From Candidatus Methylomirabilis sp. (GTDB taxonomy: Bacteria > Methylomirabilota > Methylomirabilia > Methylomirabilales > JACPAU01), in the NCBI GenBank assembly GCA_036000645.1, contig DASYVA010000150.1:1-40160 (forward strand): DNA of 40,160 nucleotides, read 5' to 3'. The notes under the pieces are model-generated. The model saw only the letters and a program-made list of their open reading frames with translations. It did not search any database and was not told where the DNA came from. Of this stretch, positions 6,778 through 37,295 are shown in pieces (within the stretch, counting starts at the first letter, position 1; the number at the start of each line of letters is the position of its first letter). The position numbers were made by a program, and so were the translations under genes.

Positions 6778-8063
6778 GGCCGCTCCCCCGCTCCGGCCGT
6801 TCTCCCGTCCCGCGAGGTCGCCACGACGCGCCGCCCCTCGTTCGCCGGGTCGGCCAGGCGGCCGGGCGCGACCACGACCTGCTCGCCCGGGTGGAACCCC
6901 TCCACCACCTCGATCCACCCGGCCGGGTCGGCCACCCCTAGCCGCGCCGCCCGGAAGCGGAGGCGGCCATCCACAACCGTCCAGGCGCCGGGCCCATCGG
7001 GCGTCCGCACGAGGGCGGCCAGGGGGAGGGCCACCACCCGTCTCGTGGCCCCGGGCCGGATCGTGGCCTCGGCCTGCTCCCCGAGGATCAGCCGCGGCGG
7101 CCGCTCCTCGAAGGTCAGATCCACCGCCAGCTGCTCGGTGACCCGGTCACTTTCGCGCCGGATCCTCGCGATGCGGCCGCGGAGCGTCCGGCCGGCCAGG
7201 GAGCGGAGCGCGATCTCCGCGGGATCGCCGACGGCGATGCCGCCAGTTTCCCGCTCGTCCACGTTCACGGTCACCCAGGCCGTGCGCGGGTCAGCGATCT
7301 TGAGGATGGGGGTCCCGGGATTCACTGTGGCGCCCGGTTCCAGGTCCCGGCTGACCACATACCCGTCGAGGGGACTGACGACCACAGTGTCGGCCTGCCG
7401 TGCCCGGGCCGTGGCCAGCGCCGCCTCCGCGGCCCGGATGTCGTGCTCCACCATATCGAGGGCAGCCTGGAGCACCGCCACCTCCGCGACGGCCGCCTCG
7501 CGCTGGGCCTCCGCGTTCTTCAGCTCATCGGCAGCGGCGGCGGCCTCCGTGACCCGGGCGTCCATGTCCGCCCGCGCCACCCCACCCTCCGCGTGGAGCT
7601 GGCGCCAGCGCTCCGCGTTAACGCGAGCCAGGGACTCGGTCGCCCGAACGCGGGAGACGGCCGCCGCGGCCGCCTCCAGGGCCGCTCGGGCCTTCCGCAA
7701 CGCAGCCTCCTGGGCGGCGACGCCGAGGCGCGCCCGCCGGAGGGTCGCCTCCGCCTGCTCGACCTGGGCGACGTGCTCCGCATCTTGCAGGCGGGCCAGA
7801 ACTTGGCCGGGCCGCACCGTGTCCCCCTGGTCAACCAGGACGGCCACGACCCGCCCGGTGATCTTCGCCCCGACCTGGACGACGACCTTCGCCTCGACCG
7901 TCCCCACGCCCTGGACCGCCGGAGCGATCTCACGGAGGGCCACTTCCGCCACGGTGACCGGTGTCGGGCGGAGCAGGAAGAGCGCCCCGGCGCCGGCCAG
8001 GGCCACGAGCCCTCCGGCCAGCAGGAGCCCCTTCACGATCCGTCGCAGCCGCCGCCGATCCAT
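6774..8063 (-). CDS. HlyD/MacA-family periplasmic adaptor (membrane fusion) protein
   Basis: 429 residues: an N-terminal membrane anchor (10-28), a biotinyl-lipoyl half around 60-94 containing GAKITGRV and GDTVRPGQVLARL, a long Ala/Glu/Arg-rich coiled-coil hairpin (about 95-215), the second lipoyl half with SPLDGYV, and a beta-barrel/membrane-proximal part. Such adaptors link an inner-membrane ABC permease to an outer-membrane channel. It is the first gene of the operon that continues through the ATPase, ferritin, ba3 oxidase and SLC13 genes. The start has GGAGGGAAGCAT before ATG, and a sigma-54-type promoter lies about 90 nt upstream. Confidence 0.9.
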   Translation of the reverse strand: MDRRRLRRIVKGLLLAGGLVALAGAGALFLLRPTPVTVAEVALREIAPAVQGVGTVEAKVVVQVGAKITGRVVAVLVDQGDTVRPGQVLARLQDAEHVAQVEQAEATLRRARLGVAAQEAALRKARAALEAAAAAVSRVRATESLARVNAERWRQLHAEGGVARADMDARVTEAAAAADELKNAEAQREAAVAEVAVLQAALDMVEHDIRAAEAALATARARQADTVVVSPLDGYVVSRDLEPGATVNPGTPILKIADPRTAWVTVNVDERETGGIAVGDPAEIALRSLAGRTLRGRIARIRRESDRVTEQLAVDLTFEERPPRLILGEQAEATIRPGATRRVVALPLAALVRTPDGPGAWTVVDGRLRFRAARLGVADPAGWIEVVEGFHPGEQVVVAPGRLADPANEGRRVVATSRDGRTAGAGERP

Positions 8064-8152
8064 ATGCTTCCCTCCGGTCCCTCCACCTGGCTCACCCCGG
8101 TAAGGTCACGCACGGGCGGATGCGAGGAGGCAGGGCCCGCCGGGGTCGGAGA

Positions 8153-8167
8153 GCAACCGGGATGCCA
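8153..8167 (-). promoter_or_regulatory. Sigma-54-type -24/-12 promoter of the exporter/ferritin/ba3 oxidase operon
   Basis: The minus strand reads TGGCATCCCGGTTGC, 13 of 15 positions identical to the promoter at 389-403. Spacing of GG and GC is correct. The predicted start near 8141 leaves a leader of about 78 nt before the adaptor ATG. If active, it places the high-affinity oxidase genes under RpoN control. Confidence 0.7.
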
Positions 8168-8218
8168 GCGCGGCGCCATGAGAATTCAGCCGGTTAGGAA
8201 GAGCCCGCGCGCCCGCGC

Positions 8219-8236
8219 TGGGACACGGGCGCCCCG
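8219..8236. promoter_or_regulatory. Dyad TGGGACA-N4-CGCCCCG, candidate activator site
   Basis: TGGGACACGGGCGCCCCG matches the left half of the recurring dyad exactly and the right half less well. A second degenerate copy begins at 8239 (TGGGACCCCCTGGCCCC). The near edge is 52 nt from the -24 element, exactly as in the 455-472 site. Confidence 0.45.
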
Positions 8237-8358
8237 GGTGGGACCCCCTGGCCCCTGCCGTCGGGGCACCCCTGTGGTGGCCCCTCGCCAGGACCCGGGA
8301 CCGAGCGGCTCCGCCCAGATCGGAACGCGGGCCGGCCAGGCCAAGGGCGCGGATGCGG

Positions 8359-8493
8359 CTACTTGCGGAACGTCACTCGCCGCACGACCCGGTGGACGGC
8401 AAACTCCTCCCCCGGCCGGTGCTGGTAGGTGAGGGTGGGCCGGTTCCCTCCACCGTCAGGACAGCATGGCCCTGGCGACCGCTCCTGCGCAAC
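8359..8493 (-). pseudogene. Open 44-codon stretch after the second YeeE stop, possible gene remnant
   Basis: Directly after the YeeE-type stop, and in the same frame, 44 sense codons run to a TAG. The later part has the G/C third-position bias of real genes here and reads like protein (NRPTLTYQHRPGEEFAVHRV). It contains a Cys-Cys pair (codons 10-11) but no usable start codon. I see three explanations: the tail of a decayed or frameshifted gene, an extension of the YeeE protein through a further TGA, or chance. I favour a remnant. The rest of the 8237-8358 spacer shows nothing coding. Confidence 0.25.
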
Positions 8494-9048
8494 TCACACC
8501 CCCTTCCGGTCGAGCCAGAGGAGAAACCCCCCACCGAGGATGCCCAGGGGGAGGATCACCGTCCAGTGATTCACCCCCGCGAGCGCCGGAAAGGTCAGCT
8601 TCCCGTAGGCGCCGACCGTGACCAGGTTCCCCTGGATGAGGGGGTAGACTTCTGAATAGAGCCCGGCGCCCAGGAGGATCCCCAGGATGCCCCGGAACAA
8701 CCCGTCCATGCGCCCTTCCCCGAAGGCGCCGGCGCAGGTGCCGGGTCAGAACCCGAGGAGGAGCATCCCGACGCCGAAGATGAGGCCCCCGAGGATGTTC
8801 GCGCCGAGGAGGATCGGCTTGATGTGCAGGCGCACGAGCCCCAGGTCGTAGAGCAGGTAGACCCCCACCATCCCCGCCAGGATGCCCCCGATCATCACCT
8901 TGAGGACGGTCAGGTCGGTGAGGCGGAAGAAGGCCACGATCTTCTGGTACTTGGTCACCTGCCCCTTCTGCAGGATGAACCCGAAGAGGATCCCGGTGCC
9001 GAGCCCCAGGAGAAGCCGGGCCGTGCCCGTGATCTCCAGTGGTCCCAT
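8494..9048 (-). CDS. YeeE/YedE-family transporter, second half, selenocysteine at codon 101
   Basis: A 184-residue membrane protein if TGA at 8746-8748 is read as Sec. The first 100 codons (MGPLEITGTARLLLGL ... FGVGMLLLGF) and the following 84 codons (PGTCAGAFGEGRMDGLF ... LLWLDRKGV) are in one frame and together cover the family motif G(Y/F)CPGT, with the TGA in place of the conserved Cys. A second Cys follows at 105. YeeE/YedE proteins move thiosulfate or another sulfur (perhaps selenium) species, with essential cysteines in the path. A hairpin lies 16 nt after the TGA. Start: GGAGGGCATAGCC before ATG. The partner half-transporter lies immediately upstream. Confidence 0.85.
8710..8729 (-). 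promoter_or_regulatory. Candidate bacterial SECIS hairpin for the second YeeE gene
   Basis: On the minus strand GCGCCTT pairs with AAGGGCGC (one bulged G) around a CGGGG loop. It starts 16 nt after the in-frame TGA. Bacterial SECIS elements lie within the coding sequence just behind the UGA and present G-rich apical loops to SelB. No fold calculation was done. Confidence 0.5.
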
Positions 9049-9050
9049 GG

Positions 9051-9572
9051 CTATGCCCTCCGGAAGATGAGCCGCCCCGCGATGATCCCGGAGACCATCA
9101 TGGCGGCGAGGAAGATCCAGCTACTCACCGCGAGCTGCAGGCCCCCACTGAGCCCGTGCCCGCTCGTTCAGCCGTCTGCCAGCCGGGCGCCGAAGCCGAC
9201 GAGTACCCCACCGAGAATTCCCAGCGTCCACCGGCGCGCCGGGCTCGTCCCGAACCGGTTCACCCAGACCTCCGGGAGCTGCGTGCTGAACGTGACCGCC
9301 CGCTGGCTCAGGCGGGCGGCCAGGTAGGCCCCGATCGGAATCCCAAGGACCAGCATGAACTGCCAGTCCACGATTGGTTTGACCATCTGCCAGTAGGGGT
9401 TCGCCGCCACGTGGGCAGGCGCGGCGATCCCCACCACCATCCCCGCGGCCCGGGAGAACGTAGTCGAAACGGAGAGGTAGTAGTCGGCCGTATAGAAGGC
9501 GGCCGTGTTGAGCAGCCCGAGCAGCAGGCCCGTCTGCCACCAGGGCCACTCCTGTTTTCGCAACCAGGCCAT
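9051..9572 (-). CDS. YeeE/YedE-family transporter, first half, selenocysteine at codon 135
   Basis: A 173-residue membrane protein when TGA at 9168-9170 is read through. The sequence before it ends GGVLVGFGARLADG, and after it continues TSGHGLSGGLQLAVSSW and a final membrane helix to TAG at 9051. Family members have GCTSGHGISGG here, so the TGA replaces the signature cysteine itself. The first 134 residues contain three hydrophobic segments and the YWQMVKP region typical of the family. I chose ATG at 9572, preceded by GGAGGGAGAAG; GTG at 9587 overlaps the upstream stop. The gene starts 12 nt after the disulfide oxidoreductase and ends 2 nt before the second YeeE gene, so the pair is surely co-expressed. 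Confidence 0.88.
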
Positions 9573-9583
9573 CTTCTCCCTCC

Positions 9584-10237
9584 TCACTGAGAGTTGTGTG
9601 ACCGGCCCGCACCCTCCAGCACGCGGGCCAGATAGGCCTCCTCAGGCAGGGCGCCGTCGATGAACCCGGCCTCGTTCACCACCGTCCTGGGGACGCCCCG
9701 CACGCCGTACCGTTGCACGAGATGGGGGAACTCCGTGGCCTCCACCATGTCGGCCCGGATCAGGTCGCTCTCCAGCGCAAAGGCGTGCGCCAGCCGCACC
9801 GCGGCCGGGCAGTAGGGTCAGGTGGGAGTCACGAAGACCTGGAGGTGCAGGGGCCGGTCGAGGGTCCGGAGCCGCTCGATCGTGGCCGGGCTCAACGCCG
9901 ACTTCCCACGGGAGACGGCCAGGATGTCCTCCAGCAGCGTGGCGAACTCGTACCCCGCGGGCAGCCCGTAGAAGCGGATGCCGTAGTCCTTCACCCCCGC
10001 GACCACCGTCGCCGGGATCTTGTCGATCTGGTACTGGGAGACCTGCTGCTTGTCGAGCTGAAAGTTGTAGACCTCGAGGGAGAGCTTCTCCGACAGCCCG
10101 CTCAGTTCCTGGAGGAGCTGCCCCGTCTCCCGGCAGGTCGGGCACTCCAGCTCCTGGGTGAAGTTCACCAGCTTGACGGGGCCCTCCATTTGCTTCAGAC
10201 GATCCTGAATCCCCCGCCGATCCCGCTCCGACAGCAT
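9584..10237 (-). CDS. Glutaredoxin-like protein disulfide oxidoreductase, selenocysteine at codon 140 (UPYC)
   Basis: 217 residues in two thioredoxin folds, like archaeal PDO proteins. The N-terminal unit has CPTC (Cys32, Cys35). In the C-terminal unit, QVFVTPT is followed by TGA (9818-9820) and then PYCPAAVRLAHAFA; homologs have CPYC, so TGA replaces the attacking cysteine, giving UPYC. The frame continues with the cis-proline segment GVRGVPRTVVN and ends with TGA at 9584. The enzyme would reduce, oxidise or relay thiols, polysulfides or selenols in the cytoplasm. Its place between OsmC and the YeeE pair points to handling the imported sulfur species. Confidence 0.88.
9793..9805 (-). promoter_or_regulatory. 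Candidate bacterial SECIS hairpin for the disulfide oxidoreductase
   Basis: GCCGC and GCGGC form a perfect 5-bp stem around a GGT loop, starting 12 nt after the in-frame TGA. The short distance and a loop beginning with G fit bacterial SECIS elements, but such short GC stems are also common in GC-rich DNA. Confidence 0.45.
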
Positions 10238-10258: not shown

Positions 10259-10696
10259 TTAGGCCGAGGCGGGCTGCACGTCGATCCTCACCTCGATTCC
10301 GTGCCGCACGCTCTGCGTCACCACGCAAAACTCCTCGAAGAGCTCCATACAGCGGCCCATCCGGTCCCGATCCTCCGGGGCGACCTCGGGCTGGATCTTC
10401 ACCTCGATCCCGCCAATCCGGAGCCGCCCCTGCGGGTTCCGCAGGAAAGACGCCTGAACGGTGGTCCGCATCCCCATCACGGGGATCCGGGCCTTGCGGA
10501 GGCAGAAGAGCGCGCTGGCGCTGAGACAGTTCCCCACCGCCGCCGCCAGGATCCTGGAGGCATTCGGACCGTGGTCCTCCCCCAGCGGAGGCGGCTCATC
10601 CATGAGCAGGGAGGGGATCCCGGGCTGGTGGAAGTCTACCCGAAACTCGTAGCCTTTCTCAAGCTCAAGGGTGAGCGTAAAGCCCTTCTCCTCCAT
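10259..10696 (-). CDS. OsmC/Ohr-family protein
   Basis: 145 residues with the two conserved cysteines of the family: Cys57 in AVGNCLSAS and Cys124 in EEFCVVTQSVR. OsmC/Ohr proteins are cytoplasmic thiol peroxidases acting on organic hydroperoxides; some members of this subgroup are linked to sulfur metabolism. Two further cysteines (65, 116) are present. It has a GGAGGAGGACGCG Shine-Dalgarno region, starts 17 nt after DUF302 and ends 21 nt before the disulfide oxidoreductase, so its partner reductant may be that selenoprotein. This link is inference. Confidence 0.9.
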   Translation of the reverse strand: MEEKGFTLTLELEKGYEFRVDFHQPGIPSLLMDEPPPLGEDHGPNASRILAAAVGNCLSASALFCLRKARIPVMGMRTTVQASFLRNPQGRLRIGGIEVKIQPEVAPEDRDRMGRCMELFEEFCVVTQSVRHGIEVRIDVQPASA

Positions 10697-10713: not shown

Positions 10714-11097
10714 CTACTTTGCCTCATCGATCATTTTGATGGTTTCGCGCTCCACCTCCTCAGCGACGCCCTTCAGGGCTTCGCTGCCGGGGAAGAGGGC
10801 CAGGAGGGCGGTAGGCCGGACCATGCCGATTTTCGTCTTGCCCTTCTCCCGGTACACGGAAATCCGGCAAGGGAGCGCCATGTTCACGCCCATGTTTCGC
10901 GTGAGGACCTCCATCGCCCGCTGAGGATTACACACCTCGAGGATCTTGCAGGCGTTCGGGAAATCAACCCCTTTGTCCTTCAGCGTCTGCTGAAGGTTGT
11001 GCACGTGGAGAACCCCGAACTTGTTCCGCTTCACCGCCGCCTCGAGGTCCCGTGCCGCCGTGTCCACATCCTTGCTTGTCTCGACCACGTACAGCAT
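10714..11097 (-). CDS. DUF302-domain protein
   Basis: 127 residues matching the DUF302 family by its LYVVETSKDVDTAARDLEAAV start, the GVLHVHNLQQTL strand-helix and the CKILEVCNPQRA segment with two cysteines, followed by LPCRISVY. The function of DUF302 is not established; the domain often occurs beside sulfur-oxidation or thiol genes. It is the first gene of the five-gene thiol/YeeE operon, with AGGAGGCCATA before ATG. The 196-nt spacer upstream (11098-11293) shows no sigma-54-type element and no clear promoter by eye. Confidence 0.85.
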   Translation of the reverse strand: MLYVVETSKDVDTAARDLEAAVKRNKFGVLHVHNLQQTLKDKGVDFPNACKILEVCNPQRAMEVLTRNMGVNMALPCRISVYREKGKTKIGMVRPTALLALFPGSEALKGVAEEVERETIKMIDEAK

Positions 11098-20420: not shown

Positions 20421-20921
20421 TCACTTTCCCTTCCGCTGCAAGTTCCGAAGATAGTTCACCACGTCCCACCGCTCGCGCGGCGCGAGGGCCTCGCCCTGTG
20501 CCGGCATCAGGGCCCCGCCGTCCCGGATCGTGGCATAGATGAACCCGTCGGGCCGCTGCCGGAACAGCTCCAGCGTGAGGTCGGGCGGGGGGACAAACTT
20601 CGCCGCGACCGGCCCCCCGCCCTTGGCATCGGGCCCATGACAGAGGGCGCAGTAAACGAGAAAGAGGCGCTTGCCGTTCTCGAGGGAGGCCGGCGTCGGC
20701 TCCACCGGATTGCGCAGCCGCTCCCCGGCCCTCACCCGGTCCATCCGCGGCTCCTGGCCCTGCCTCGGGACCGTCCCCGGCGGCGGCAGCAGCGGCGCCT
20801 CCTGGGGCCGGACTGAGGGCTGCTTGTCCATATCGTCGCTCCACGGCCAGCCGTGGGCGAGGCTCACCCCGAGCACCAGGAGCCCCGCGGCCCCGGCCAG
20901 GACCCGCGCGAGCGTCCTCAC
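20421..20921 (-). CDS. actE: Alternative complex III subunit E, membrane-linked monoheme cytochrome c
   Basis: 166 residues: an N-terminal hydrophobic signal or anchor (RTLARVLAGAAGLLVLGVSLA), then a Pro-rich stretch and one class I cytochrome c domain with CALCH at about residue 100 and a distal Met in GGALMPAQ. ActE carries electrons out of alternative complex III towards periplasmic cytochromes or an oxidase. GTG at 20921 is preceded by GGGAGATTCC. It is the last gene of the ACIII operon; its order after actF differs from the Rhodothermus order, where E precedes F. Confidence 0.88.
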   Translation of the reverse strand: MRTLARVLAGAAGLLVLGVSLAHGWPWSDDMDKQPSVRPQEAPLLPPPGTVPRQGQEPRMDRVRAGERLRNPVEPTPASLENGKRLFLVYCALCHGPDAKGGGPVAAKFVPPPDLTLELFRQRPDGFIYATIRDGGALMPAQGEALAPRERWDVVNYLRNLQRKGK

Positions 20922-20938
20922 GGAATCTCCCTTCTGCC

Positions 20939-22207
20939 TCACGGGTGGGGCGCCTCCGGCCCCGGCGCGGGGACCAGGGGGAAGTGCCGCAGGAAGAACT
21001 CGTAGCTCAGCCCCGCGGCCCCCAGGAAGCCGACCGTCACGGCCGCCTCGAGCCACCCGAACGGGACCGTCTCGTGGTGCCAGAGCGAGGGGACGACCAG
21101 CACGTACCGCTCGAGCCACAGGCCGGCGGCGACCAGCGCGCCCACGGCCAGCATGATCCCCGGGACGCGCTTGGCCCCCCGGCTCAGGAAGATGACGAAC
21201 GGGACGAGCAGTGTGGCGGCCAGCACAGCCCAGCTGAGGGGCGCCCAGGGCCTCTCCCAGAGGCGAACGACCACGAAGTGGGTCTCCTCCGGCAGGTTCC
21301 CGTACCAGATGACGATATACTGGGACCAGAGCATGGCCGCGTACGTGAGGGTGAACCCGAACAGGAGCTTGCCCAGGTCGGCGAACTGGCTGGGAGTGAT
21401 GGCGGTGAGCCCGATGGTCCAGCGGGCAAGCGCCGCCACTACGGCGAGCCCGGCCAGCCCGAGGTAGAACGTGCTGATGAAGAAATAGCCGCCGAAGAGC
21501 GAGGAATACCAGAAGGGGTCCAGGGCCATGATCAGGTCGAACGCCATGAAGCTGTAGGTGATCGGGTAGGCGAGCAGCACCCCGGCCGCCACGACGTCCA
21601 TGCCCCGCCGGCCCCGCTGCCGCTCCACCTCCTCCCCGTGCCACTCCTGGGCCAGCCAGTCGTAAGGCCACCGCCGGGGCAGCAGGCCCCGCTCCACGGC
21701 GCCCCCGACCTCGGGGCGGAGCGCGTAGTAGACGAAGAGCAGGCTGAGGACCGTCATCGACCCGAGGCCGAGGAGCCCCCGGACGAAGATGAAGCGGGGA
21801 TCGAACCAGGCCCCCCGTTGCGGGTTGATCTCCCGGACCGGGTCGAGAAAGACCTCCAGGCCGAAGTAGAGCGGCAGGAAGAGCACGAGGCTTACCGGAA
21901 GGAAGGCCGCCATCCCCTCGGCCAGGCGCCGGATCGCGGCCCCCCACCGGGCGCCCACCACATGGTAGATCGCCGCAAACACCACCGCGCCCTGGGCCAG
22001 CCCACTCCAGAAGAGGAAATTGACCAGGTAGATCTGCCAGGCTCGCCCCGCGTCCACGAACAGGCCGCCGACGCACGCTCCCCCGCCGAGCGCCACCCCG
22101 CCCCACAGCGCCGCCACCAGGGAGCGGGGAACCGGGCGCGGCAGGCCCCCGCCCGCCCCGGGGTCCCGTGCGACGAGCGTTCTCCCTTCGGTTGCGGCGT
22201 GCGCCAC
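20939..22207 (-). CDS. actF: Alternative complex III subunit F, quinol-oxidising membrane subunit (NrfD-like)
   Basis: 422 residues with about ten membrane helices in the NrfD-like arrangement. Recognisable parts are GRAWQIYLVNFLFWSGLAQG at the start, FDLIMALDPFWYSSLFGGYFF in the middle and LWSQYIVIWYGNLPEET, all characteristic of the ActF family. With ActC it forms the membrane core that oxidises quinol. GTG at 22207 follows AGAGGTAGCC, the end of actD. The longer open frame upstream is spurious. Confidence 0.9.
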   Translation of the reverse strand: MAHAATEGRTLVARDPGAGGGLPRPVPRSLVAALWGGVALGGGACVGGLFVDAGRAWQIYLVNFLFWSGLAQGAVVFAAIYHVVGARWGAAIRRLAEGMAAFLPVSLVLFLPLYFGLEVFLDPVREINPQRGAWFDPRFIFVRGLLGLGSMTVLSLLFVYYALRPEVGGAVERGLLPRRWPYDWLAQEWHGEEVERQRGRRGMDVVAAGVLLAYPITYSFMAFDLIMALDPFWYSSLFGGYFFISTFYLGLAGLAVVAALARWTIGLTAITPSQFADLGKLLFGFTLTYAAMLWSQYIVIWYGNLPEETHFVVVRLWERPWAPLSWAVLAATLLVPFVIFLSRGAKRVPGIMLAVGALVAAGLWLERYVLVVPSLWHHETVPFGWLEAAVTVGFLGAAGLSYEFFLRHFPLVPAPGPEAPHP

Positions 22208-22209
22208 GG

Positions 22210-22725
22210 CTACCTCTGCGCCCGGTGCACGTCCTCTGCCCCCGCACCCCGGAGCAGAGAGCTCACCGCGTCGAAATCCTTCTCCTCGCAGCGGACCCAC
22301 AGGCCGAACCGATCCTCCGAGAAGCGGGGATCGTAGGCCGGGAGAATGTGCACGCGCGGCAACCGGGCGTTCAGGAGCATCCCCCCGAGCGTGAGGAGGC
22401 CCCCGAAGAGGATCGTCAGCTCGAAAACGATGATGAGAAACGGGGGGATCGAGACGATGGGCTTCCCGCCGGTGATGAGCGGGTAATGGAGGGAGGTGGC
22501 GATGGTCAGGACGAGGCCGGTGATGGCTCCCAGCACGCAGCCGACGAGGGTGAAGAACCGCACGGGACTGGGCGCCTTGGCCAGCGCCTCGTCAATGGCG
22601 TGGTGCGGGACCGGCGAGAGGGCCGCCAGGTCGCGGTGCCCCGCGCCCCGCAACAGCGCGATGGCCTCGAGCAGGCTGTCCAGGTAAAGAAACGTCCCCA
22701 CGAGTCCTGGCGGACGCCGGGTCAC
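22210..22725 (-). CDS. actD: Alternative complex III subunit D (DUF3341)
   Basis: 171 residues with the DUF3341 layout: a cytoplasmic N-terminal part (LVGTFLYLDSLLEAIALLRGAG), two membrane helices around TLVGCVLGAITGLVLTIATS and FLIIVFELTILFGGLLTLGG, and a C-terminal LPAYDPRFSEDRFGLWVRC region. ActD is a peripheral scaffold of the complex on the membrane. The start is GTG, one base after the actC stop codon. Confidence 0.9.
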   Translation of the reverse strand: MTRRPPGLVGTFLYLDSLLEAIALLRGAGHRDLAALSPVPHHAIDEALAKAPSPVRFFTLVGCVLGAITGLVLTIATSLHYPLITGGKPIVSIPPFLIIVFELTILFGGLLTLGGMLLNARLPRVHILPAYDPRFSEDRFGLWVRCEEKDFDAVSSLLRGAGAEDVHRAQR

Positions 22726-22726
22726 G

Positions 22727-24052
22727 CTACGCCTCCCCCTGCGCGGCTCGCACCGGCGGCGGCAACTCCTCCTTCACCTCCACCATGGAGACGACGGGGA
22801 GGAGCTTGGCAAAGAGGAGGAACCAGAGGAAAAACCAGGCGAAGCTCCCCACCGTGATGCTGATATCCACCCAGGTGGGGATGAACAGCCCCCACGAGTA
22901 CGGGTCGTACTCGTGGGCCAGCCCGGTCACGATGATCACGAACCGCTCGCACCACATCCCGATGTTGATCAGAATCGCGATGCCGAAGAGCCACGGGGTG
23001 CTGGTCCGGATGCGCTTGACGAAGAAGAGGAGGGGGACCAGCGAGTTGAACAGGATCATGATCCAGAAGGGAATCGCGTACTCGCCGGTCACCTGGTAGA
23101 GGAAGCGCTGCCACTCGGGAACGTTGTTGCTGTACCAGGCGATGTAGGACTCGACAACGTAGGCGTAGCCCACGATGAGGCCGGTGAGGATGATGAGCTT
23201 GGCCAGGTTCTCGAGATGGGTCTGCGTGAGATAGGCGTCGAGGCGGAAGATCCGCCGGAGCGGGATCAGGAGGGTGATCACCATGGCCAGCCCCGAGTGG
23301 ATCGCCCCCGCGACGAAGTACGGGGCGAAGATCGTGCTGTGCCAGCCGGGAACGATGGACTGGGCGAAGTCCCAGGAGACGACGCTGTGGACCGAAATGA
23401 CCAGGGGCGTCGCCAGCGCCGCCAGGAACAGGTAGGCCGCCTTGTAGTGGCGCCACTGCCGGTCGGTCCCCTGCCAGCCCTGGGCGAGGAAGCCGTAGAT
23501 CCGGCGCCGCCACCCCGTGGTCCGGTTGCGGACGACGGCCAGGTCGGGAACCAGGCCGGTGAAGAAGAAGAGGACGCTGATGATCATGTAGGTCATCACC
23601 GCGAAGACGTCCCAGACGAGCGGCGAGCGGAAGTTGACCCACAGGCCGCCCACCTGGGGGTAGGGCAGGAGCCAGTAGAAGAACCAGGGCCGCCCCAGGT
23701 GGATCAGGGGGAACAGGCCGGCGGTGAAGAGCGCGAAGACCGTCACCGCCTCGGCCGTCCGGTAGATGCTGGCCCGCCACCGGACCCGGAAGAGGTAGAG
23801 GACGGCCGAGATCAGGGTCCCGGAGTGGGCGATCCCCACCCAGAACACGAAGTTGGTGATATCCATGGCCCACATGACCGGGTGGTTCAGTCCCCAGACT
23901 CCGAGGCCGCGCTCGACCGTGTACCGCCAGGCGTAGATCCCCCAGGCCAGGACCAGGAGGTTCACCAGGAAGACGGCGTAGTACCGCCACCCGGGCGCCT
24001 CCATGGCCCGGAGGATGTCCTGATCTACCTGGCTGTAGGTGAGTCGCGCCAC
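22727..24052 (-). CDS. actC: Alternative complex III subunit C (NrfD/PsrC-like quinol-oxidising subunit)
   Basis: 441 residues with ten membrane helices. Family signatures are [35 protein letters not shown]-like sequence at about 55-90, [57 protein letters not shown] and [12 protein letters not shown]-type regions (quoted in part). ActC binds quinol at the periplasmic side and passes electrons to the iron-sulfur clusters of ActB. The start is GTG immediately before the actB stop. Confidence 0.93.
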   Translation of the reverse strand: [441 protein letters not shown]

Positions 24053-26971
24053 CTAGCCCTCCAGCGCCCCCGGGACGATCTTCTTCAGGTAGGTGATGGC
24101 CGGCTGGGTGTTCAGGTGCTCGAGGACCCGATACCGCCGCGGATCCCGGGCCCGCCTGGAGACCTCGCTCGCCTCATCCTTCAGGTCGCCGAAGATGATC
24201 GCCCGCGTGGGGCAGGCCTGGGCGCAGGCGGGGACGATCTCCCCGTCCCGGACCGGCCGCCCCTCCGCCTTGGCCGCCCGCTTGCCACCCTCGATCCGCT
24301 GGACGCAGAAGGTGCACTTCTCCATCACGCCCATCGTGCGGACCGTCACGTCCGGGTTGAGCTGGAGATGGAGCGGCTCGGGCCAGGCCGCGGGGAACCA
24401 GTTGAACCGGCGGACCTTGTAGGGACAGTTGTTGGAGCAGTACTTGGTGCCGACGCACCGGTTGTAGACCTGGACGTTCAGGCCGTCCGGGTTGTGGTAG
24501 GTGGCGTAGACCGGACAGACCGGCTCGCAGGGGGCGCTGTCGCAGTGCTGGCAGAGCATGGGGAGGAAGCGGTGCTCGGGCCGGTCCCGCCCCCCCTCGT
24601 CCACGCGCTCGATCCGGATCCAGGACATCTCCCGCCCCCGGCCGACCTGCTCCTTCCCCACGATCGGGATGTTGTTCTCGGCGTAGCAGGCCACGACGCA
24701 GCCGCCGCAGCCGATGCACGCGTTGAGGTCGATGGCCATCCCCCAGCGGTGCCGGGGATGGGGGTGCTCGGGGTAGATCTGGAGCAGGTGCGGCCGCTCT
24801 CCCGGCAGCCGCCCGCCCTGGAGCGCGGCCAGGGAGACGCTCTGGACGATCTCGCGGTCGTGGGGCCTGTCGCTCCCCGCCACCGAGACGAGGGGATGCC
24901 GCCTCCCCGTCGGCCGCGCGGTCACCCGGGTCGCGACCCAGGGGAGACCCCCCGAGACCGCCTCGGGCTCGGGGGATAGCAGCGGGATCGGATTGGCGCC
25001 CCGGCCCGCCGCATAGCGCCCGAAGACCGTGTGCCCCTGCCCGACCGGGACCGCGACCGTTCCGGGGCGCACCCCGCCGGAGAGGTGGGCCGGCAACTCC
25101 ACTCGGCCGGCGGGGGACTCGAGCCGGAGCACATCCCCCTCCGCCACCCCCAGGCGCCGGGCATCCTCGGGGTGGACCTCCACCCAGTTGTCCCAGACGA
25201 TCTGGGTGAGCGGGTCCGGGAGCTCCTGAAGCCAGGGGCGGTTCGCCATCCGCCCGTCGTAGAAGGCGGCGGAGGGGTAGGGGATCAGGGTGAAGCCCTC
25301 GCCCTCCCCCGGGAGGGCCGGAACCTCGAAGCGGACCCGGACGGCCTCCGGGCTGAGCCGGACGGGCCGCGCCGCCGCGGGAGTGAAGAGCCCGCCCCGC
25401 TGCAGCGCGGCGGCCCAGAAGGTCTCGAAGTCCTCCGCGGGCCGCAGCCGCCGGTGCACGTCCCGCCACTGCTCTCGCAGGTACGCGGCGAAGTCCTCCC
25501 ACGGGAACGCCTTCGCCCTCCCGGAGCGCCTCGCCACCGACAGCAGGACATCGCCTAGCGCCCGCGTGTCGTACAGGGGCCGCATGACCGGCTGCTGGAG
25601 ACTGCGGACGCCATCCCAGGGCTCGTCGTCGCCCCAGGCCTCGAGAAAGGTATGGTCCGGCAGGACCAGGTGGGCCGCGGTCGCCGTCTCATCGGGGAAG
25701 GAGGCGAAGCTCACGACCAAGGGGACTTTCCGGAGCGCCTCCTCGAAGCGCGCCCCCTCCGGGAGGGTGAAGAGGGGGTTGACCCCGGCCAGGAGGAGCA
25801 GGGAGATCCTCCCGGCCTCCATGGCCAGGAGGAGGTCCCGCATCTCCCGGTAGGTGGAGGCCCGCCCCGCCGCAGCCGTCGGCCCAAAGCGGACCGTCTG
25901 GCCGAAGTTGCCGACCGCGTAATTGAGAAGGTGAACCGCCAGACAGGTCGCCGTTCCGCTCCCACCCCGGCCGTCCGCCAGGGCCAGGCTCGGGCGCCGC
26001 CGCGCGAAGGCGCGGGCCAGCACGCGGACCTTATCCCCCGAGATGCCCGCCCGCTCCGCGACCGCCTCCGGGGGGAAGGGGGCCGCGAACCGCCGCAGCG
26101 CGTCCTCTTCCCCGCCAGGGAGGCGAGGTGCCAGGCGCTCGGCGAGGATCGTGTGGAGCATCCCGAGGGCGAGGAGGCCCTCCGTCCCCGGGCGAACGGC
26201 GACCCACTCGTCGGCGCTGGCCCCCGTGAGGGAGAGGCGGGGGCCGATGTAGGCGAACCGCCCCATCCGGCCCTCCCGGTAGGCCCGCATGGCGGCGAAC
26301 TGGCGGGCGTGCTCCACGGGGGAGAGCCAGGTCTCCAGGAAGTCGGCGCCGAACGAGAGGACCACCCGCGCGGCCTCGAGGTCGTAGTAGGGGATCGCCT
26401 CGAGGCCGAAGGCGAGGCGGCTCGCGGTGCGGAGCGGCTCGTGGGCGATGGCCTCGTACCGGAGGCGCCGCCCGCCCACCGCCGCGAGCCAGGCCTCGAT
26501 GAGGCGGTCGAGGCTCCCCGTGAGGAGCGGGGTCACGAAGGAGATCCGGTCCCCGCGTCCCTTGAGCGCGGCGAGGTGCTCCGTCAGGAGCCCCTCCGCC
26601 TCGTCCCACGGGATCGCCTCCAGGGTGCCGTCTGCCTTCCGGCGGAGCGGCTGCCGGAACCGATCGGGGTTGTAGAGTCCCTGCAGACTCGCCTGGCCCC
26701 GAGCGCACAGGCCGCCCTGACTCACCGGATGGTCCGGGTTCCCCTCGACCTTGATCACGCGGCCGTCGACGGTCTTCGCCAGGATCCCGCATCCCGCCGG
26801 GCATTCCCGGCAGACGGTCGCGTACCAGGTGGCCTTCCCCGGCGCGATCTCCTCGGGCGGGATGAGGTAGGGGACGAGGGTCTCGGGGGGCTCCGCGCCG
26901 CAGCCCACCATGCCGGCCGCGGTTCCGCCGATGCCGACGATCTTGAGGAAGTCCCGCCGGTTGATCTCCAT
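24053..26971 (-). CDS. actB: Alternative complex III subunit B, molybdopterin-oxidoreductase-like and ferredoxin-like fusion
   Basis: 972 residues. A Tat signal (RRDFLKIVGIGG) leads into a molybdopterin-oxidoreductase-like domain (about 45-690), with CRECPAGCG and a fourth Cys in GGLCARGQ at its start. The C-terminal ferredoxin-like domain has CIGCGGCVVAC, CQHCDSAPCEPVCP, CVGTKYCSNNCP and CTFCVQR with a distant CAQACP, giving four Fe-S clusters. In ACIII this subunit carries electrons from quinol to the heme subunits and needs no molybdenum. The four N-terminal cysteines could hold an extra cluster. It follows actA by 10 nt. Confidence 0.93.
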   Translation of the reverse strand: MEINRRDFLKIVGIGGTAAGMVGCGAEPPETLVPYLIPPEEIAPGKATWYATVCRECPAGCGILAKTVDGRVIKVEGNPDHPVSQGGLCARGQASLQGLYNPDRFRQPLRRKADGTLEAIPWDEAEGLLTEHLAALKGRGDRISFVTPLLTGSLDRLIEAWLAAVGGRRLRYEAIAHEPLRTASRLAFGLEAIPYYDLEAARVVLSFGADFLETWLSPVEHARQFAAMRAYREGRMGRFAYIGPRLSLTGASADEWVAVRPGTEGLLALGMLHTILAERLAPRLPGGEEDALRRFAAPFPPEAVAERAGISGDKVRVLARAFARRRPSLALADGRGGSGTATCLAVHLLNYAVGNFGQTVRFGPTAAAGRASTYREMRDLLLAMEAGRISLLLLAGVNPLFTLPEGARFEEALRKVPLVVSFASFPDETATAAHLVLPDHTFLEAWGDDEPWDGVRSLQQPVMRPLYDTRALGDVLLSVARRSGRAKAFPWEDFAAYLREQWRDVHRRLRPAEDFETFWAAALQRGGLFTPAAARPVRLSPEAVRVRFEVPALPGEGEGFTLIPYPSAAFYDGRMANRPWLQELPDPLTQIVWDNWVEVHPEDARRLGVAEGDVLRLESPAGRVELPAHLSGGVRPGTVAVPVGQGHTVFGRYAAGRGANPIPLLSPEPEAVSGGLPWVATRVTARPTGRRHPLVSVAGSDRPHDREIVQSVSLAALQGGRLPGERPHLLQIYPEHPHPRHRWGMAIDLNACIGCGGCVVACYAENNIPIVGKEQVGRGREMSWIRIERVDEGGRDRPEHRFLPMLCQHCDSAPCEPVCPVYATYHNPDGLNVQVYNRCVGTKYCSNNCPYKVRRFNWFPAAWPEPLHLQLNPDVTVRTMGVMEKCTFCVQRIEGGKRAAKAEGRPVRDGEIVPACAQACPTRAIIFGDLKDEASEVSRRARDPRRYRVLEHLNTQPAITYLKKIVPGALEG

Positions 26972-26981
26972 CCCCCTCCCC

Positions 26982-27482
26982 CTAGCGGTGGCAGACGACG
27001 CAGTCGATGCTGACGGCCCGCTCCCGGTGGCAGCCCACGCAGGTGTCCATGGTCAGGGTCGCGAGGCGCGGGAGGCGCTCCAACGTTTCGACGGCGCCGT
27101 GACAGGTCTGGCACTCGAGCTCCGCCCGCACGTGGGGCCAGTGCTCGAAGTAGACGAAGTCGGGCAGCCAGGTCACCTTCGTCCAGGGGATCGGCTCCTG
27201 GCGCTCCCAGTACCCGGCCAGCTTCTGCACTTCGGGGCGAGCGGCCGCCGTGATCTTGTGACAGCCCACGCAGCGCTGGACCGACGGGATGCCGGCGACC
27301 GCCGCGGTCCGGGCGTGGACGTGGCAGTACAGGCAGGCGATCCGGTTGTCTCCCGCGTGGAGTTTGTGGCTGAAGGCGACGGGCTGTTCGGGGGCGGACG
27401 GCGGGCCGAGCGAGAGGGCCAGGGCACCCCCTCCGACAAGGGCGATCAGGAGGACCGCTGCCGCTGCTAGCCCGCTCCGCAT
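26982..27482 (-). CDS. actA: Alternative complex III subunit A, pentaheme cytochrome c
   Basis: 166 residues: N-terminal signal/anchor helix (4-26) and five heme motifs, CLYCH, CVGCH, CQTCH, CVGCH and CVVCH. ActA of characterised ACIII is a pentaheme subunit with the same role, moving electrons from ActB towards ActE. The HKLHAGDNRIACLYCHVHA start is typical. Oddly, no Shine-Dalgarno precedes ATG at 27482; the opposite strand shows GGAGGTGATC there instead, so initiation may depend on coupling with the cytochrome gene 17 nt upstream. Confidence 0.92.
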   Translation of the reverse strand: MRSGLAAAAVLLIALVGGGALALSLGPPSAPEQPVAFSHKLHAGDNRIACLYCHVHARTAAVAGIPSVQRCVGCHKITAAARPEVQKLAGYWERQEPIPWTKVTWLPDFVYFEHWPHVRAELECQTCHGAVETLERLPRLATLTMDTCVGCHRERAVSIDCVVCHR

Positions 27483-27498
27483 CGGAGGTGATCGATAG

Positions 27499-27894
27499 CT
27501 ATTGAGTGGGCTTGTAGGGAGGAACGGCCAGGGTCCGGATGTAGGCGATGACGTTCCAGATGTCCTGGTCTTTCAACTGGCTCGACCAGGGGGGCATGAG
27601 GGGCGACTTCCCCACGCTGGCCCCGCCCCCCTTGATGATATCGAACAGGTATTGATCCTTCAGGGCATTCATGTACTTCCCGTCGGCATGATTGCGGGGC
27701 CTGGGCGAGAGGGCGGCGGCGGCCGGGCCATCCCCCTTCCCGGTGGGCCCGTGGCAGGATGAGCAGAGGAGATCGTAGCGCTGCTTCCCCGCCTTCGGAT
27801 CACCCTTCTGCTGGGCAAAGCCTCGGAGCGGCGTCAGGACCAGGATGAGGACGGACAGGAAGACCGTGCACCCGACGAACCTGGCTCCTCTCAT
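27499..27894 (-). CDS. Secreted monoheme cytochrome c
   Basis: 131 residues with a signal peptide ending near GFAQQ and a class I cytochrome domain: CSSCH at about residue 44, then GPTGKGDGP and a distal Met in SPLMPPWSSQL, ending QDIWNVIAYIRTLA. It probably shuttles electrons in the periplasm between the porin-cytochrome pair upstream and ACIII downstream. ATG at 27894 follows GAGGAGGCACGGGA. The longer open frame upstream lacks similarity. Confidence 0.9.
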   Translation of the reverse strand: MRGARFVGCTVFLSVLILVLTPLRGFAQQKGDPKAGKQRYDLLCSSCHGPTGKGDGPAAAALSPRPRNHADGKYMNALKDQYLFDIIKGGGASVGKSPLMPPWSSQLKDQDIWNVIAYIRTLAVPPYKPTQ

Positions 27895-27973
27895 TCCCGT
27901 GCCTCCTCTCTCGCTTGGGCGCGTGCCCGGCGACCCCCTTCTTATACCGCATCCCTGGACGGACGGGAAGAGC

Positions 27974-28001
27974 AGAATATGAAGGGGGCGGGACAGATCA
28001 A
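27974..28001 (-). promoter_or_regulatory. Possible sigma-70-type promoter upstream of the cytochrome c/ACIII genes
   Basis: On the minus strand TTGATC and TATTCT are separated by 16 nt in the 134-nt spacer behind the barrel gene. A second AT-rich stretch (GGTATAAGA) follows near 27943. It could give the ACIII part of the operon its own transcript; it is weak evidence in a single sequence. Confidence 0.3.
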
Positions 28002-28028
28002 CGGCGGCGTTCCGGGCGGGGGCCGGCA

Positions 28029-30344
28029 CTAGAAGCGATAAATGAGGCTGAGGGCAATGACGTGGGCGACGTAGTCGTCCACCCGGTCGCCCAGGAAGAC
28101 ATCGAGGGAGGGAGAAACCGTTCCGGCTGCGTTGACGTTCGAGTTGGTCATGAAGGGGTCAAGGTCGTCCGTCTTGAAATTGGACAGGTTGAAGTGCTCG
28201 AAGCGGTACTCGGCCTTCACCGTCAGGTTCTTCACGATGTGATATCGGAGAGCCGCGATGAAGGTCTGGAGGGTGTCCTTGATGTCCGGCCAGTCGACGG
28301 CATTGCCGCCATCCGGTGCGGCCGTCGTGCCGGGGACTCCCGTGGCCCCGGTCTTCGCCTTGGCGATCTCGAGGACATAGGAGAGGCTCGCATCCAGGCG
28401 GTCCGGGATGAGGAGGATGTCCGCCCCGACCCCGGCCGTGTGGACCTGCTCCTCCGAGGTGCTCGACCAGTCGTTCAGCGAGCTGTCCACGGCCACTCCA
28501 CCGGAGACAGGCCGCCACCGGGAGTCTTGCTTGAACTGGATGTTCTCGAAGGTGTACCAGGCCGAGAGTGCGAGCCGCTCGAGGGGGCGGTAGCCGATAT
28601 CGGTCCCGACGCTCCACCGCTCGTCTTCGGTCAGGCCGAGGGTGGTGTCATCGTAGTCCGTCAGGCCGTAGCCGCCGGTGAAGGCCAGGGTAAGGTCGTC
28701 CCGCGGGCTGAACTGGGCCAGGAGGTCCACCTGATTCCGAATCCGGTCGGCCTCGTCGAACTTGCGGAGGAGGGTGGACTGCCCCGTGGTAACGGAGGTG
28801 GAGAAATCCGCCTCGTCGATGATGGTGTGCGCCAAGTGGGCGAAGGTATTGTAGTCGGTGCCGCGCCGGATGCCGAACCGGTAGCCGGCCCTCAGCAACG
28901 CAGAGGCCACCGGCTTGTAGTCGATGGCAGCCTTCCAGGTATGCTCATCCGTCCGGATGACCTCGCGATGGTCACTCCGGTCCCACCGTTCCCACTCGTA
29001 GCCCAGCTTGAGCGTGGCAGGACGGGCGAGCCGGTAGGAAGCATCCAGGCTGGCGTTGTGCGTGCGGTGGTCCATCGGCGTGTTCCCGCGGTCCTCATCC
29101 GAAAGGCTTTGGTCATTCACCACATGCCCGTCGAAGATCAGAAGAGGGATGTTGCTGTCGTAGTCATAGAAGCGGTAGCGGGCGGTCAGGCTCAGGTCCC
29201 GCAGGGGACGGCCTGTCAGGACCAGGTTCGCGAGCAGGGTCCGCACTTCGCCATCAAGGCCACTCGCTGGGAGGGCCAGCGAAGCACCCGCATTACCTGT
29301 GGGGATGTTTGCATTGATCGTATGGGGGACGAAGGGGTCGTTCTGAAACCGCATCCCGTAGGAGAAGGTGCCTGCGAAGCGCGCCGGGAAGTCCACAGGG
29401 AGCGTGACCGCGCCCGAGAGGCGGATGGTGTGGGCAGAGTTATCCGGCGCCAGGTCCGTCCGACCTCGCCCAGGGGTACTCGTTCCGCCGGCACCACTGG
29501 CGGTGAACGCCCCATCCGTCAACTGCAAGGGGTTGTCTATCGCTACCGTGTCCAGATCATTTTCGTAGAAGGAGCCGGTGTAGTCGAGCCGGAGGCTCCA
29601 GGTGTCCCGCGCCACCTGGATCCCCCCGGTCACTTCGTGCGTCCGCTCGTCGATCGGGGCGGCGACGTTGGCGAAGTTGCCCCCCGGACTGGCGAACCCC
29701 ATTCCAAAGGGGCGGGTCCCCTCCTTCTGTTGGACCCAGTAGCTGGTATCGACCTCCAGGTCGGCCAGCGGCCGGTAGAAGAACCCGATTCGGCCGGTCT
29801 GGAGTCGGAAGCGGAGGGGGACGGCGGTCGCCCCGCTCAAGGCGCTCTGGAGGGCCGCGCTCTTCAGAGCGCTCGTCCCCAGCCCTTGAATGGTGCTCTG
29901 TGTGGCGTCGGGGAAGTCCAGGGCCCCGCCCCCCTGGTCGCTATAGAGGGTCCGCGCGGTGTTGCTGAAGACGTGGACGAGCTCGTCGAACTCTAGCTCC
30001 AGCCGGTACCGGCCGTAGCGGCCGCTCGCGACCTCGTAGTGCTGGTCCCGCTCGGCGATGTCGGTGGCTGAGCCCTCGAAGTAGTACTTCCCTTCCTTCC
30101 CCTCCAGGAGGAGCCGGGCGTTCCCGAAGACCCCCGGCCGCTGCTCCCGGTACTCCTCGTACTTGGAGGACCCAAAGGCGCTGGAGCCCTCGGGGACGAA
30201 GCGGCCCCCCACCTCGACCTCGCCCGTCGCGGTAACAACCCCGAGATCGACCTGAGCCGAGGCCACGGACGGGATGGTCAGCAGTACCCCTAGGGCTCCC
30301 GCCAGGCTGGCAACTCCGGGAAACCGCATCCCTCTCGCCCCCAT
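28029..30344 (-). CDS. MtrB/PioB-family outer-membrane beta-barrel
   Basis: 771 residues: signal peptide (to about 31, ending ASA), an opening GEVEVGGRFVPEGSSAFGSSKYEEY typical of the MtrB family (quoted up to 20 at a time: VTATGEVEVGG, FGSSKYEEYREQ), then alternating strands with aromatic girdles and a C-terminal Phe in HVIALSLIYRF. No cysteine occurs in the whole protein, so the CxxC of Shewanella MtrB is missing. MtrB barrels enclose a decaheme cytochrome (MtrA) and let electrons cross the outer membrane in iron reduction or oxidation. The decaheme gene lies 14 nt upstream. ATG at 30329 is an alternative start. Confidence 0.88.
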   Translation of the reverse strand: MGARGMRFPGVASLAGALGVLLTIPSVASAQVDLGVVTATGEVEVGGRFVPEGSSAFGSSKYEEYREQRPGVFGNARLLLEGKEGKYYFEGSATDIAERDQHYEVASGRYGRYRLELEFDELVHVFSNTARTLYSDQGGGALDFPDATQSTIQGLGTSALKSAALQSALSGATAVPLRFRLQTGRIGFFYRPLADLEVDTSYWVQQKEGTRPFGMGFASPGGNFANVAAPIDERTHEVTGGIQVARDTWSLRLDYTGSFYENDLDTVAIDNPLQLTDGAFTASGAGGTSTPGRGRTDLAPDNSAHTIRLSGAVTLPVDFPARFAGTFSYGMRFQNDPFVPHTINANIPTGNAGASLALPASGLDGEVRTLLANLVLTGRPLRDLSLTARYRFYDYDSNIPLLIFDGHVVNDQSLSDEDRGNTPMDHRTHNASLDASYRLARPATLKLGYEWERWDRSDHREVIRTDEHTWKAAIDYKPVASALLRAGYRFGIRRGTDYNTFAHLAHTIIDEADFSTSVTTGQSTLLRKFDEADRIRNQVDLLAQFSPRDDLTLAFTGGYGLTDYDDTTLGLTEDERWSVGTDIGYRPLERLALSAWYTFENIQFKQDSRWRPVSGGVAVDSSLNDWSSTSEEQVHTAGVGADILLIPDRLDASLSYVLEIAKAKTGATGVPGTTAAPDGGNAVDWPDIKDTLQTFIAALRYHIVKNLTVKAEYRFEHFNLSNFKTDDLDPFMTNSNVNAAGTVSPSLDVFLGDRVDDYVAHVIALSLIYRF

Positions 30345-30358
30345 CTCCCGCTCCCTCC

Positions 30359-31282
30359 TCAACGCGTGAAGGCGAAGCCGGACGGATGGTTGGAACCGTG
30401 GATGTTCTGGTGGCACTGGAGGCACGCCCGGCCGATCACGAACTTGTTGGTCGGGAGCCGTGCCTCGGTCGGGTGGCGGCTCTCCACGTGGCACTGCTGG
30501 CAGACCCGCGGCGGGGAGAGCTTCAGCATCTTGTCCCGGACCCCCCCGTGCGGGTCGTGGCAGTTCATGCAGTTTTCAGCGACCGGAGCATGCTCCCAAA
30601 GGAACGGGCCCCGCTTGTCGGCGTGGCACCGGTAGCAGTTGTCGTTGGGAGAGTCCACCGGCAGCAGGGCCTTGCTTACGGTCCCGTGCGGGTTGTGGCA
30701 GGAGGTGCAGGTCATCTTCCCCTCCCGCAGGGGCATGTGGGCGTTCCGGAAGGTCTGGGAGCGGCGGGTCAGGTGGCACTGGGCGCAGGTGTCGATCTCG
30801 CTCGCCTTGGCCAGGAGGGCCTTCTCGGAGGTGCGCTGCATCACCTGATGGCACGAGGTGCAGCCCACGTCCCGCCCTTCGTGCGGGCTCCCCTGCCAGT
30901 AGAGCCGCTTCCCCTTCTCGTGGCAGGTGAGGCAGACGGCGTTTTCCTTTTCGACGGCCTCGGCCGTCTCCCGCCGGAACGTGGTCAGGCCGCCCACTCC
31001 CTTCCCGCCCCCGGCCTCCACGTGCGCCTTCCCGGGCCCGTGGCAGGCCTCGCAGCCCCGCAGCATGAGGGGCGTGCGGGCATTCTGCTCGGTAAAGACC
31101 TTCGCGTGCATGGTCTTGGCGAACGCGTCCTTGAGGGGCTCATGGCAGGTGAGGCAGGTGTCGGAGCCGACGTACCCGTTCGGGGCCTGAGGCTGGGCTG
31201 CGGCAACAGACGGCAAGGAGAGGAACAGCAGACCGAGGAGGAGCAGCGAGGCCCGGAGACCGGGCGGGGGCGCCTCTCTCAT
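30359..31282 (-). CDS. Decaheme c-type cytochrome, DmsE/MtrA family
   Basis: 307 residues with a signal peptide (to about AAAQ) and exactly ten CxxCH motifs: CLTCH, CEACH, CLTCH, CTSCH, CAQCH, CTSCH, CYRCH, CMNCH, CQQCH and CLQCH. The order and the GYVGSDTCLTCHEPLKDAF and NIHGSNHPSG segments match DmsE/MtrA proteins, which sit inside an MtrB barrel as a heme wire. The partner barrel follows directly. No surface decaheme protein (MtrC type) is seen here. ATG at 31282 has GGAGGA 6 nt before it. A sigma-54-type promoter lies 135 nt upstream. Confidence 0.93.
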   Translation of the reverse strand: MREAPPPGLRASLLLLGLLFLSLPSVAAAQPQAPNGYVGSDTCLTCHEPLKDAFAKTMHAKVFTEQNARTPLMLRGCEACHGPGKAHVEAGGGKGVGGLTTFRRETAEAVEKENAVCLTCHEKGKRLYWQGSPHEGRDVGCTSCHQVMQRTSEKALLAKASEIDTCAQCHLTRRSQTFRNAHMPLREGKMTCTSCHNPHGTVSKALLPVDSPNDNCYRCHADKRGPFLWEHAPVAENCMNCHDPHGGVRDKMLKLSPPRVCQQCHVESRHPTEARLPTNKFVIGRACLQCHQNIHGSNHPSGFAFTR

Positions 31283-31416
31283 CGGCACTCCTCCAGCTGG
31301 TTGGTCAGGGGTAGGGAGCCCCTATACCATCGGTCCCTGCGGGCAGTCAACTGCTTTCCTGCCGGTTCCCCGCTTGGTCGTCAGCCGCCGGGCGGCGGTT
31401 GTGGCCGGCGGGGAGA

Positions 31417-31431
31417 GCACGTAGGATGCCA
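31417..31431 (-). promoter_or_regulatory. Sigma-54-type -24/-12 promoter of the porin-cytochrome/ACIII operon
   Basis: The minus strand reads TGGCATCCTACGTGC; the -24 half equals the other sites and the -12 half has GTGC in place of TTGC, still with the needed GC. Predicted start near 31405. It could drive all nine genes down to actE. Confidence 0.6.
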
Positions 31432-31530
31432 GGCTGCAGCCCTTTTGTCCCCGACGCCGCAACCCACGAATTGCCAAGCGATTCGCGGGCGCCCACACGG
31501 ATCTGTAGCCGCGCCCCGAAGCATCCGGCC

Positions 31531-31548
31531 TGAGGCATACCTGCCCCA
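31531..31548. promoter_or_regulatory. Dyad TGAGGCA-N4-TGCCCCA, candidate activator site
   Basis: TGAGGCATACCTGCCCCA keeps the right half of the shared palindrome and most of the left. A lone half site TGGGGCA lies at 31603-31609. It is 100 nt upstream of the -24 element. The rest of the 31283-31675 spacer shows no gene. Confidence 0.5.
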
Positions 31549-31675
31549 CCGTTTTTCTCTAACACCGCGGCGCCGCTTGCCTCCGGGGAATCCACCGCAG
31601 AGTGGGGCAGGGCAACCACAGCGGGGCGTCAACGCCCCAACATCCTCGCGGCGGACCTTCCCTCGGGGCGAGGGC

Positions 31676-37272: not shown

Positions 37273-37295
37273 AGTCGGCTCCTCCCTCTTGGGGG

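Follow-up and report, generated by a model that had tools for sequence, protein, structure and literature searches.

A stretch of 40,160 nucleotides from Candidatus Methylomirabilis sp. (contig DASYVA010000150.1; hereafter the window, meaning this stretch at its full length) carries on its minus strand, at 8494-9048, a short gene of the YeeE/YedE transporter family whose frame contains a TGA codon where the family has a conserved cysteine. The question raised by this locus is whether the gene, referred to here as half B, is damaged or whether the TGA is read as selenocysteine (Sec, U). An annotation that halts at the TGA cuts half B to 100 amino acids, and the standard open reading frame listing does so here. 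Read through the TGA, we consider it highly likely that 8494-9048 is an intact selenoprotein gene, which would encode the PmpB-type half of a two-subunit YeeE/YedE transporter with Sec in place of pore cysteine Cys91, a partner half (half A) that also contains Sec, a pore shared by both halves and a function in chalcogen relay.

In-frame TGA codons at conserved cysteines

The frame of half B runs on the minus strand from the ATG at 9046-9048 to the last codon at 8497, followed by a TGA stop at 8494-8496. Across its sole internal TGA (8746-8748) the translation reads LLLGF-U-PGTCAGAFGEGRMDGL, which agrees with the preliminary description of this DNA, where an in-frame TGA had been noted at the cysteine of G[FY]C-PGT. 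Half A is located directly upstream of half B, and an oxidoreductase gene directly upstream of half A. The features are as follows, with residues numbered through the TGA codons and positions compared with TsuA of S. thermophila (StTsuA).

8497-9048, minus strand: half B (PmpB-type, N-terminal YeeE half), 184 amino acids, predicted Sec101; PF04143 profile positions 11-149; one internal TGA; aligned to StTsuA 4-118
8746-8748, minus strand: TGA as probable Sec101, at the StTsuA Cys91 position (alignment with 8j4c); TGA or Cys in all 125 rows of the site column
9054-9572, minus strand: half A (PmpA-type, C-terminal YeeE half), 173 amino acids, predicted Sec135; PF04143 profile positions 171-309; one internal TGA; aligned to StTsuA 238-331
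9168-9170, minus strand: TGA as predicted Sec135 in DGUTSGHG, aligned to StTsuA Cys293; TGA or Cys in every row of the site column
9587-10237, minus strand: protein disulfide oxidoreductase (PDO_seleno_TRX, TIGR02187), 217 amino acids, predicted Sec140 in UPYC
9818-9820, minus strand: TGA as predicted Sec140 in TPTUPYCP, the one internal TGA of the oxidoreductase gene; TGA in most homologs of the class

Three genes in succession thus contain one in-frame TGA apiece, and every TGA stands for a conserved cysteine codon. The naive chance of three such placements is about 1/184 x 1/173 x 1/217 = 1.4e-7. Together with the homologs that have TGA at the same column, this bears out the earlier claim that TGA at two different conserved cysteines is not a matter of chance. 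In the clade of the window a cysteine follows the Sec codon of half B at i+4 (UPGTC; 8746-8734, minus strand), unlike in most homologs, and a Se-S bond between the two residues is conceivable.

A half-B homolog was found in 61 of the 148 relatives. Over all loci fetched, the site column of half B consists of TGA (29 rows) and Cys (96 rows) without any other residue, and that of half A likewise of TGA (8 rows, 5 distinct sequences) and Cys (100 rows), which is the result of the alignment check that had been proposed for this site. The 29 half-B TGA rows represent 25 distinct downstream sequences, that of the window included, from about two dozen assemblies. All in-frame TGAs within the aligned regions sit on the site codon and none elsewhere.

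The Sec loci are of three kinds. In pairs from G046, the large-genome family f7, G027 and G142 only half B has the Sec codon, while both halves have it in the window, G025, L084 (JAJONK010000610.1) and G087. The third kind consists of TsuA-like proteins encoded by one gene, in which the Cys91 position reads GGU and the Cys293 position is Cys (G003, G007, G012, G015, G021 and others); in these proteins Sec is read as a separate gain at the same site. Loci L065, L066, L068-L070 and L072-L076 are of this single-gene form, with the site reading GGUTTG or GGU[GA]SG. The possibility that the GYU loci are single full-length genes as well was rejected, as they are A-B pairs in different frames; only the GGU loci are single-gene. 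In G004 half A has Sec, and the contig ends before the site of half B. In a tree built from 72 half-B sequences, 5 changes account for the Cys/Sec label, at least 4 of them on well-supported branches, indicating that Cys and Sec were exchanged repeatedly.

The sequence behind the TGA changes in the same manner as the sequence before it. Relative to G025, half B of the window has 16/9/44 changes at codon positions 1/2/3 before the TGA and 19/10/48 after it; relative to G046 the numbers are 17/10/41 and 19/13/42. A codon-wise comparison of half A with G004 was set aside because of a one-codon gap. Half-B identity is 74-77% across the full length, the part past the TGA included. As codon positions change in the same pattern on both sides of the TGA, the part of half B past the TGA is, by this measure, still under constraint at the protein level.

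Selenocysteine machinery and hairpins behind the TGA codons

The genome of the window (2.67 Mb, 97% complete, a draft of 239 contigs) contains the Sec machinery, for which a search had been suggested: a tRNA-Sec with anticodon UCA (76.7 bits) and, by profile score, SelA (575 bits), SelB (399 bits) and SelD (353 bits). SelD (L018 1476-2515) is itself Sec-encoded, with one TGA at the canonical site, reading GUASKLG. Of the 25 genomes in the relatives search with TGA at the site (that of the window among them), 22 have SelA, the other three being assemblies that are 70-85% complete; SelA was found in the genome of L084 too. A metagenome-assembled genome of Methylomirabilota with 63 predicted selenoprotein genes has been described (PMC13188914), so Sec-rich members of such a group are already known. 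The order of the host includes a family with particulate methane monooxygenase, in agreement with a probable place in this phylum. The tRNA-Sec gene is located at L016 7856-7946, and an overlapping and adjoining frame (7813-8442, minus strand) resembles, with its translation judged by eye, the C-terminal part of a tyrosine recombinase (LRVRELRTQRW, HCLRDTFITR), which suggests that a mobile element may once have inserted at selC.

Each of the three TGA codons is followed by a hairpin that resembles a bacterial selenocysteine insertion sequence (bSECIS).

8710-8729, minus strand: bSECIS-like hairpin of half B, 20 nucleotides, GCGCCTTC-GGG-GAAGGGCGC; same offset and GGN loop in all 5 UPGT-type Sec half-proteins
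9138-9156, minus strand: bSECIS-like hairpin of half A, 7 base pairs, loop AGUGG 18 nucleotides after the TGA; kept in G025 and G004
9786-9811, minus strand: bSECIS-like hairpin of the oxidoreductase, loop GGU 17 nucleotides after the TGA; 0.7% of synonymous recodings as stable

Published limits for bSECIS elements are a stem, a G in the first loop positions and a location 16-37 nucleotides after the UGA (PMC13188914). The half-B hairpin fits this model: it begins 16 nucleotides past the TGA, where it had been placed before, and its GGG loop follows 24 nucleotides past the TGA. A stem round a GGN loop at the identical offset is found in five of five UPGT-type Sec half-proteins, with 5, 7, 7, 9 and 7 contiguous pairs; in the window the contiguous stem is followed by a bulge and then by more pairs, and G087 retains the hairpin with different stem letters. 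Among the Cys homologs, 2 of 96 have at least 5 contiguous pairs at that offset (Fisher 2.7e-7, a value that overstates independence since four of the five Sec cases are close relatives). The half-A fold is lost in the Cys ortholog of G046. By itself, each of the three hairpins is no more than mildly unusual against synonymous recoding, equally stable ones arising in 5.7% of recodings for half B and in 16% for half A. The bSECIS check that had been proposed for half B thus succeeds on fit and on conserved position. Hairpin stability as stand-alone proof of Sec was rejected, because GC-rich coding DNA yields similar hairpins.

The Sec machinery, the column restricted to Cys and TGA, the repeated Cys/Sec exchange, the codon bias past the TGA and the GGN-loop hairpin all point to the same decoding, and the TGA at 8746-8748 very probably specifies selenocysteine. 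For the two transporter cysteines and the upstream oxidoreductase alike, reading UGA as Sec is strongly supported by these comparisons, and with it the earlier proposal that both partner proteins contain Sec. Other explanations of the TGA codons fare less well. A recent nonsense mutation, a pseudogene or a sequencing or assembly error might be suspected in a draft of so many contigs, but it is hardly credible: about two dozen independent assemblies from several families have TGA at this codon and never elsewhere in the aligned regions, and coding constraint persists past it. It is very improbable that a suppressor tRNA inserts cysteine or another standard amino acid without selenium. Natural recoding of UGA to Cys via SelC-like tRNAs has been described elsewhere, and the alternation of the site with Cys only would agree with it; against this stand the complete set of SelA, SelB and SelD with a high-scoring tRNA-Sec, and the fact that SelD and the oxidoreductase are members of selenoprotein families already known, with the TGA where these families have Sec. 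Wholesale reassignment of UGA was rejected as well. Half B and the oxidoreductase gene both terminate in TGA stops, which indicates that UGA still means stop elsewhere.

Architecture of the transporter and relation to known families

Both halves score above the gathering cut-off of 27 bits for PF04143 (Sulf_transp), half B with 43.6 bits (read from P0002) and half A with 87.2 bits. The homologous halves are encoded by separate neighbouring genes, with B placed after A. In the published PmpA/PmpB system, PmpB corresponds to the N-terminal half of YeeE and PmpA to its C-terminal half, as separate genes with one cysteine each at the Cys91 and Cys293 positions (PMC11582611). On these grounds the half-protein state is taken to be the normal PmpB/PmpA condition and not a mutational split. 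The preliminary description had named homologs with the two fragments as normally separate genes as a finding that would speak against its reading. Such homologs are what was found; only the idea of a split event falls away, and the Sec reading stands.

The pair resembles PmpA/PmpB in being two adjacent short membrane genes with one YeeE half and one conserved cysteine site each (PMC11582611), and differs from it in that both sites are predicted to be Sec and that the proteins have 184 and 173 amino acids compared to about 130. Compared to TsuA/YeeE (StTsuA; PDB 6LEO, 8J4C, 8K1R), homology extends across both halves, and in the alignment to the StTsuA structures U101 of half B falls on Cys91 and U135 of half A on Cys293. 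TsuA is a single nine-helix chain with three cysteines, whereas here there are two chains, and the third cysteine, Cys22, has no equivalent, half B having Thr32 at this position. Scores for the TsuA equivalog NF052577 (47 and 37.3 bits) stayed below its cut-off of 400 bits. The Cys91-type and Cys293-type cysteines are both indispensable in TsuA (PMC11582611), and in StTsuA they are consecutive cysteines 8.6 A apart (PMC11073785). The suggestion that both ends of the transport path use Sec therefore has to be corrected: the sites are neighbouring pore cysteines, and it is the cytoplasmic-side Cys22 that lacks a counterpart.

Half B is neither a broken gene nor part of a system of a new kind. 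Two reviews list YeeE/YedE selenoproteins (PMC9312934; PMC13188914), and one of them has an entry for a YeeE/YedE thiosulfate transporter family selenoprotein (WP_012471001.1) with one Sec and the motif GUxSG, citing Zhang 2008 and Peng 2016 (PMC13188914). This catalogued protein belongs to the same Pfam family and has Sec at a conserved transporter cysteine, and its motif fits GUTSG of half A and GGU[GA]SG of the single-gene proteins. It differs in having one Sec, and G[FY]UPG[TS] of half B is off its motif, as far as the listed motif allows comparison. The main texts of Zhang 2008, Peng 2016 and deep-Sep do not mention Sec-YeeE, and the part of the literature that was covered yielded neither an account of the G[FY]UPG[TS] site nor one of a transporter pair in which both halves have Sec. 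Most characterised selenoproteins are thioredoxin-fold redox proteins, and a membrane channel with Sec in place of a transport cysteine is given only as a predicted, uncharacterised class (PMC13188914). What appears new within this known but uncharacterised class is Sec in place of the PmpB-type cysteine, and its presence in both subunits. Related genomes naturally contain Cys/Cys, Cys/Sec and Sec/Sec versions, through which any advantage of selenium over sulfur in transport could be tested directly.

Gene context and proposed function

Two further genes precede the oxidoreductase gene in the run.

10259-10696, minus strand: OsmC-family protein (PF02566), without internal TGA
10714-11097, minus strand: DUF302 protein (PF03625), first gene of the run

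The oxidoreductase (9587-10237) scores 277.3 bits for TIGR02187, compared to a cut-off of 185 bits, and has UxxC at its C-terminal active site, where TPTUPYCP matches TPTCPYCP of 1a8l in the alignment. Sec variants are common in the PDO_seleno_TRX class and near-universal in family f7, and the protein of the window departs from the class only by its place in one gene run with two further selenoproteins. Sec-PDO and OsmC recur beside Sec pairs in other families: in G056 OsmC is directly upstream of the pair and in G060 a Sec-PDO lies shortly downstream. A pyridine-nucleotide disulfide reductase with a rhodanese domain is found near the pair of G025. This gene content, together with PDO_seleno_TRX in the window, lends support to a function in thiol/sulfur redox.

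A possible course of events can be outlined. The comparisons support decoding of the UGA of half B as Sec by SelA, SelB, tRNA-Sec and SelD of the genome itself, via the hairpin just past the codon. Halves A and B would assemble into one heterodimeric channel, with the two Sec residues as neighbours on the substrate path, by homology about where Cys293 and Cys91 stand in StTsuA. For the substrate and the selenium chemistry of the pair we infer a sulfane-sulfur species (thiosulfate, persulfide or zero-valent sulfur) or an analogous selenium species. Selenolates exceed thiolates in acidity and nucleophilicity, and may hold the incoming species and pass it on, which would speed up capture and hand-over. 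The UxxC oxidoreductase, with the OsmC and DUF302 proteins, might then reduce or accept the delivered chalcogen. A diselenocysteine relay, in which two adjacent pore Sec residues, one per subunit, move the chalcogen as a covalent selenopersulfide (or Se-Se) and then on to the Sec-oxidoreductase, is a tentative extension that we regard as rather doubtful. If true, it would mean membrane transport by selenium chemistry, which goes beyond a transporter that merely contains Sec.

That the Sec-containing halves import selenium in the manner of YedE, and not sulfur, is unlikely but deserves consideration, as YedE proteins have been tied to selenium metabolism (PMC9312934), a YedE-like protein of Methanococcus maripaludis to transport of selenium (PMC11582611), and the genome requires selenium. 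Scores for the selenium-YedE models are, however, far below their cut-offs (24.9 bits compared to 200 for TIGR04112; 24.7 and 35.5 bits compared to 350 for NF033796), no sel gene is among the annotated neighbours, and the neighbours are thiol-redox genes. Still less probable is that the Sec residues serve as metal or metalloid ligands or as a membrane redox sensor instead of in transport, as both sites align with TsuA transport cysteines and no mercury or arsenic genes were recognised among the scanned neighbours. Several points weigh against the two-subunit Sec transporter proposed here. Under synonymous recoding the stability of the hairpins by itself is unremarkable, and AlphaFold models of each half, based on shallow alignments, reached a predicted local distance difference test (pLDDT) of 58-60, too poor to confirm a pore. 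The gene neighbourhood varies among relatives, and a TusA/YeeD-like partner was not recognised beside the pair.

Elsewhere in the window, a region at 20421-39065 (minus strand) with cytochrome c proteins resembles those for extracellular electron transfer and includes the following genes.

24053-26971, minus strand: molybdopterin oxidoreductase with 4Fe-4S domains
26982-27482 and 34781-37093, minus strand: cytochrome c7-type multihaem proteins
28029-30494, minus strand: MtrB/PioB outer-membrane porin
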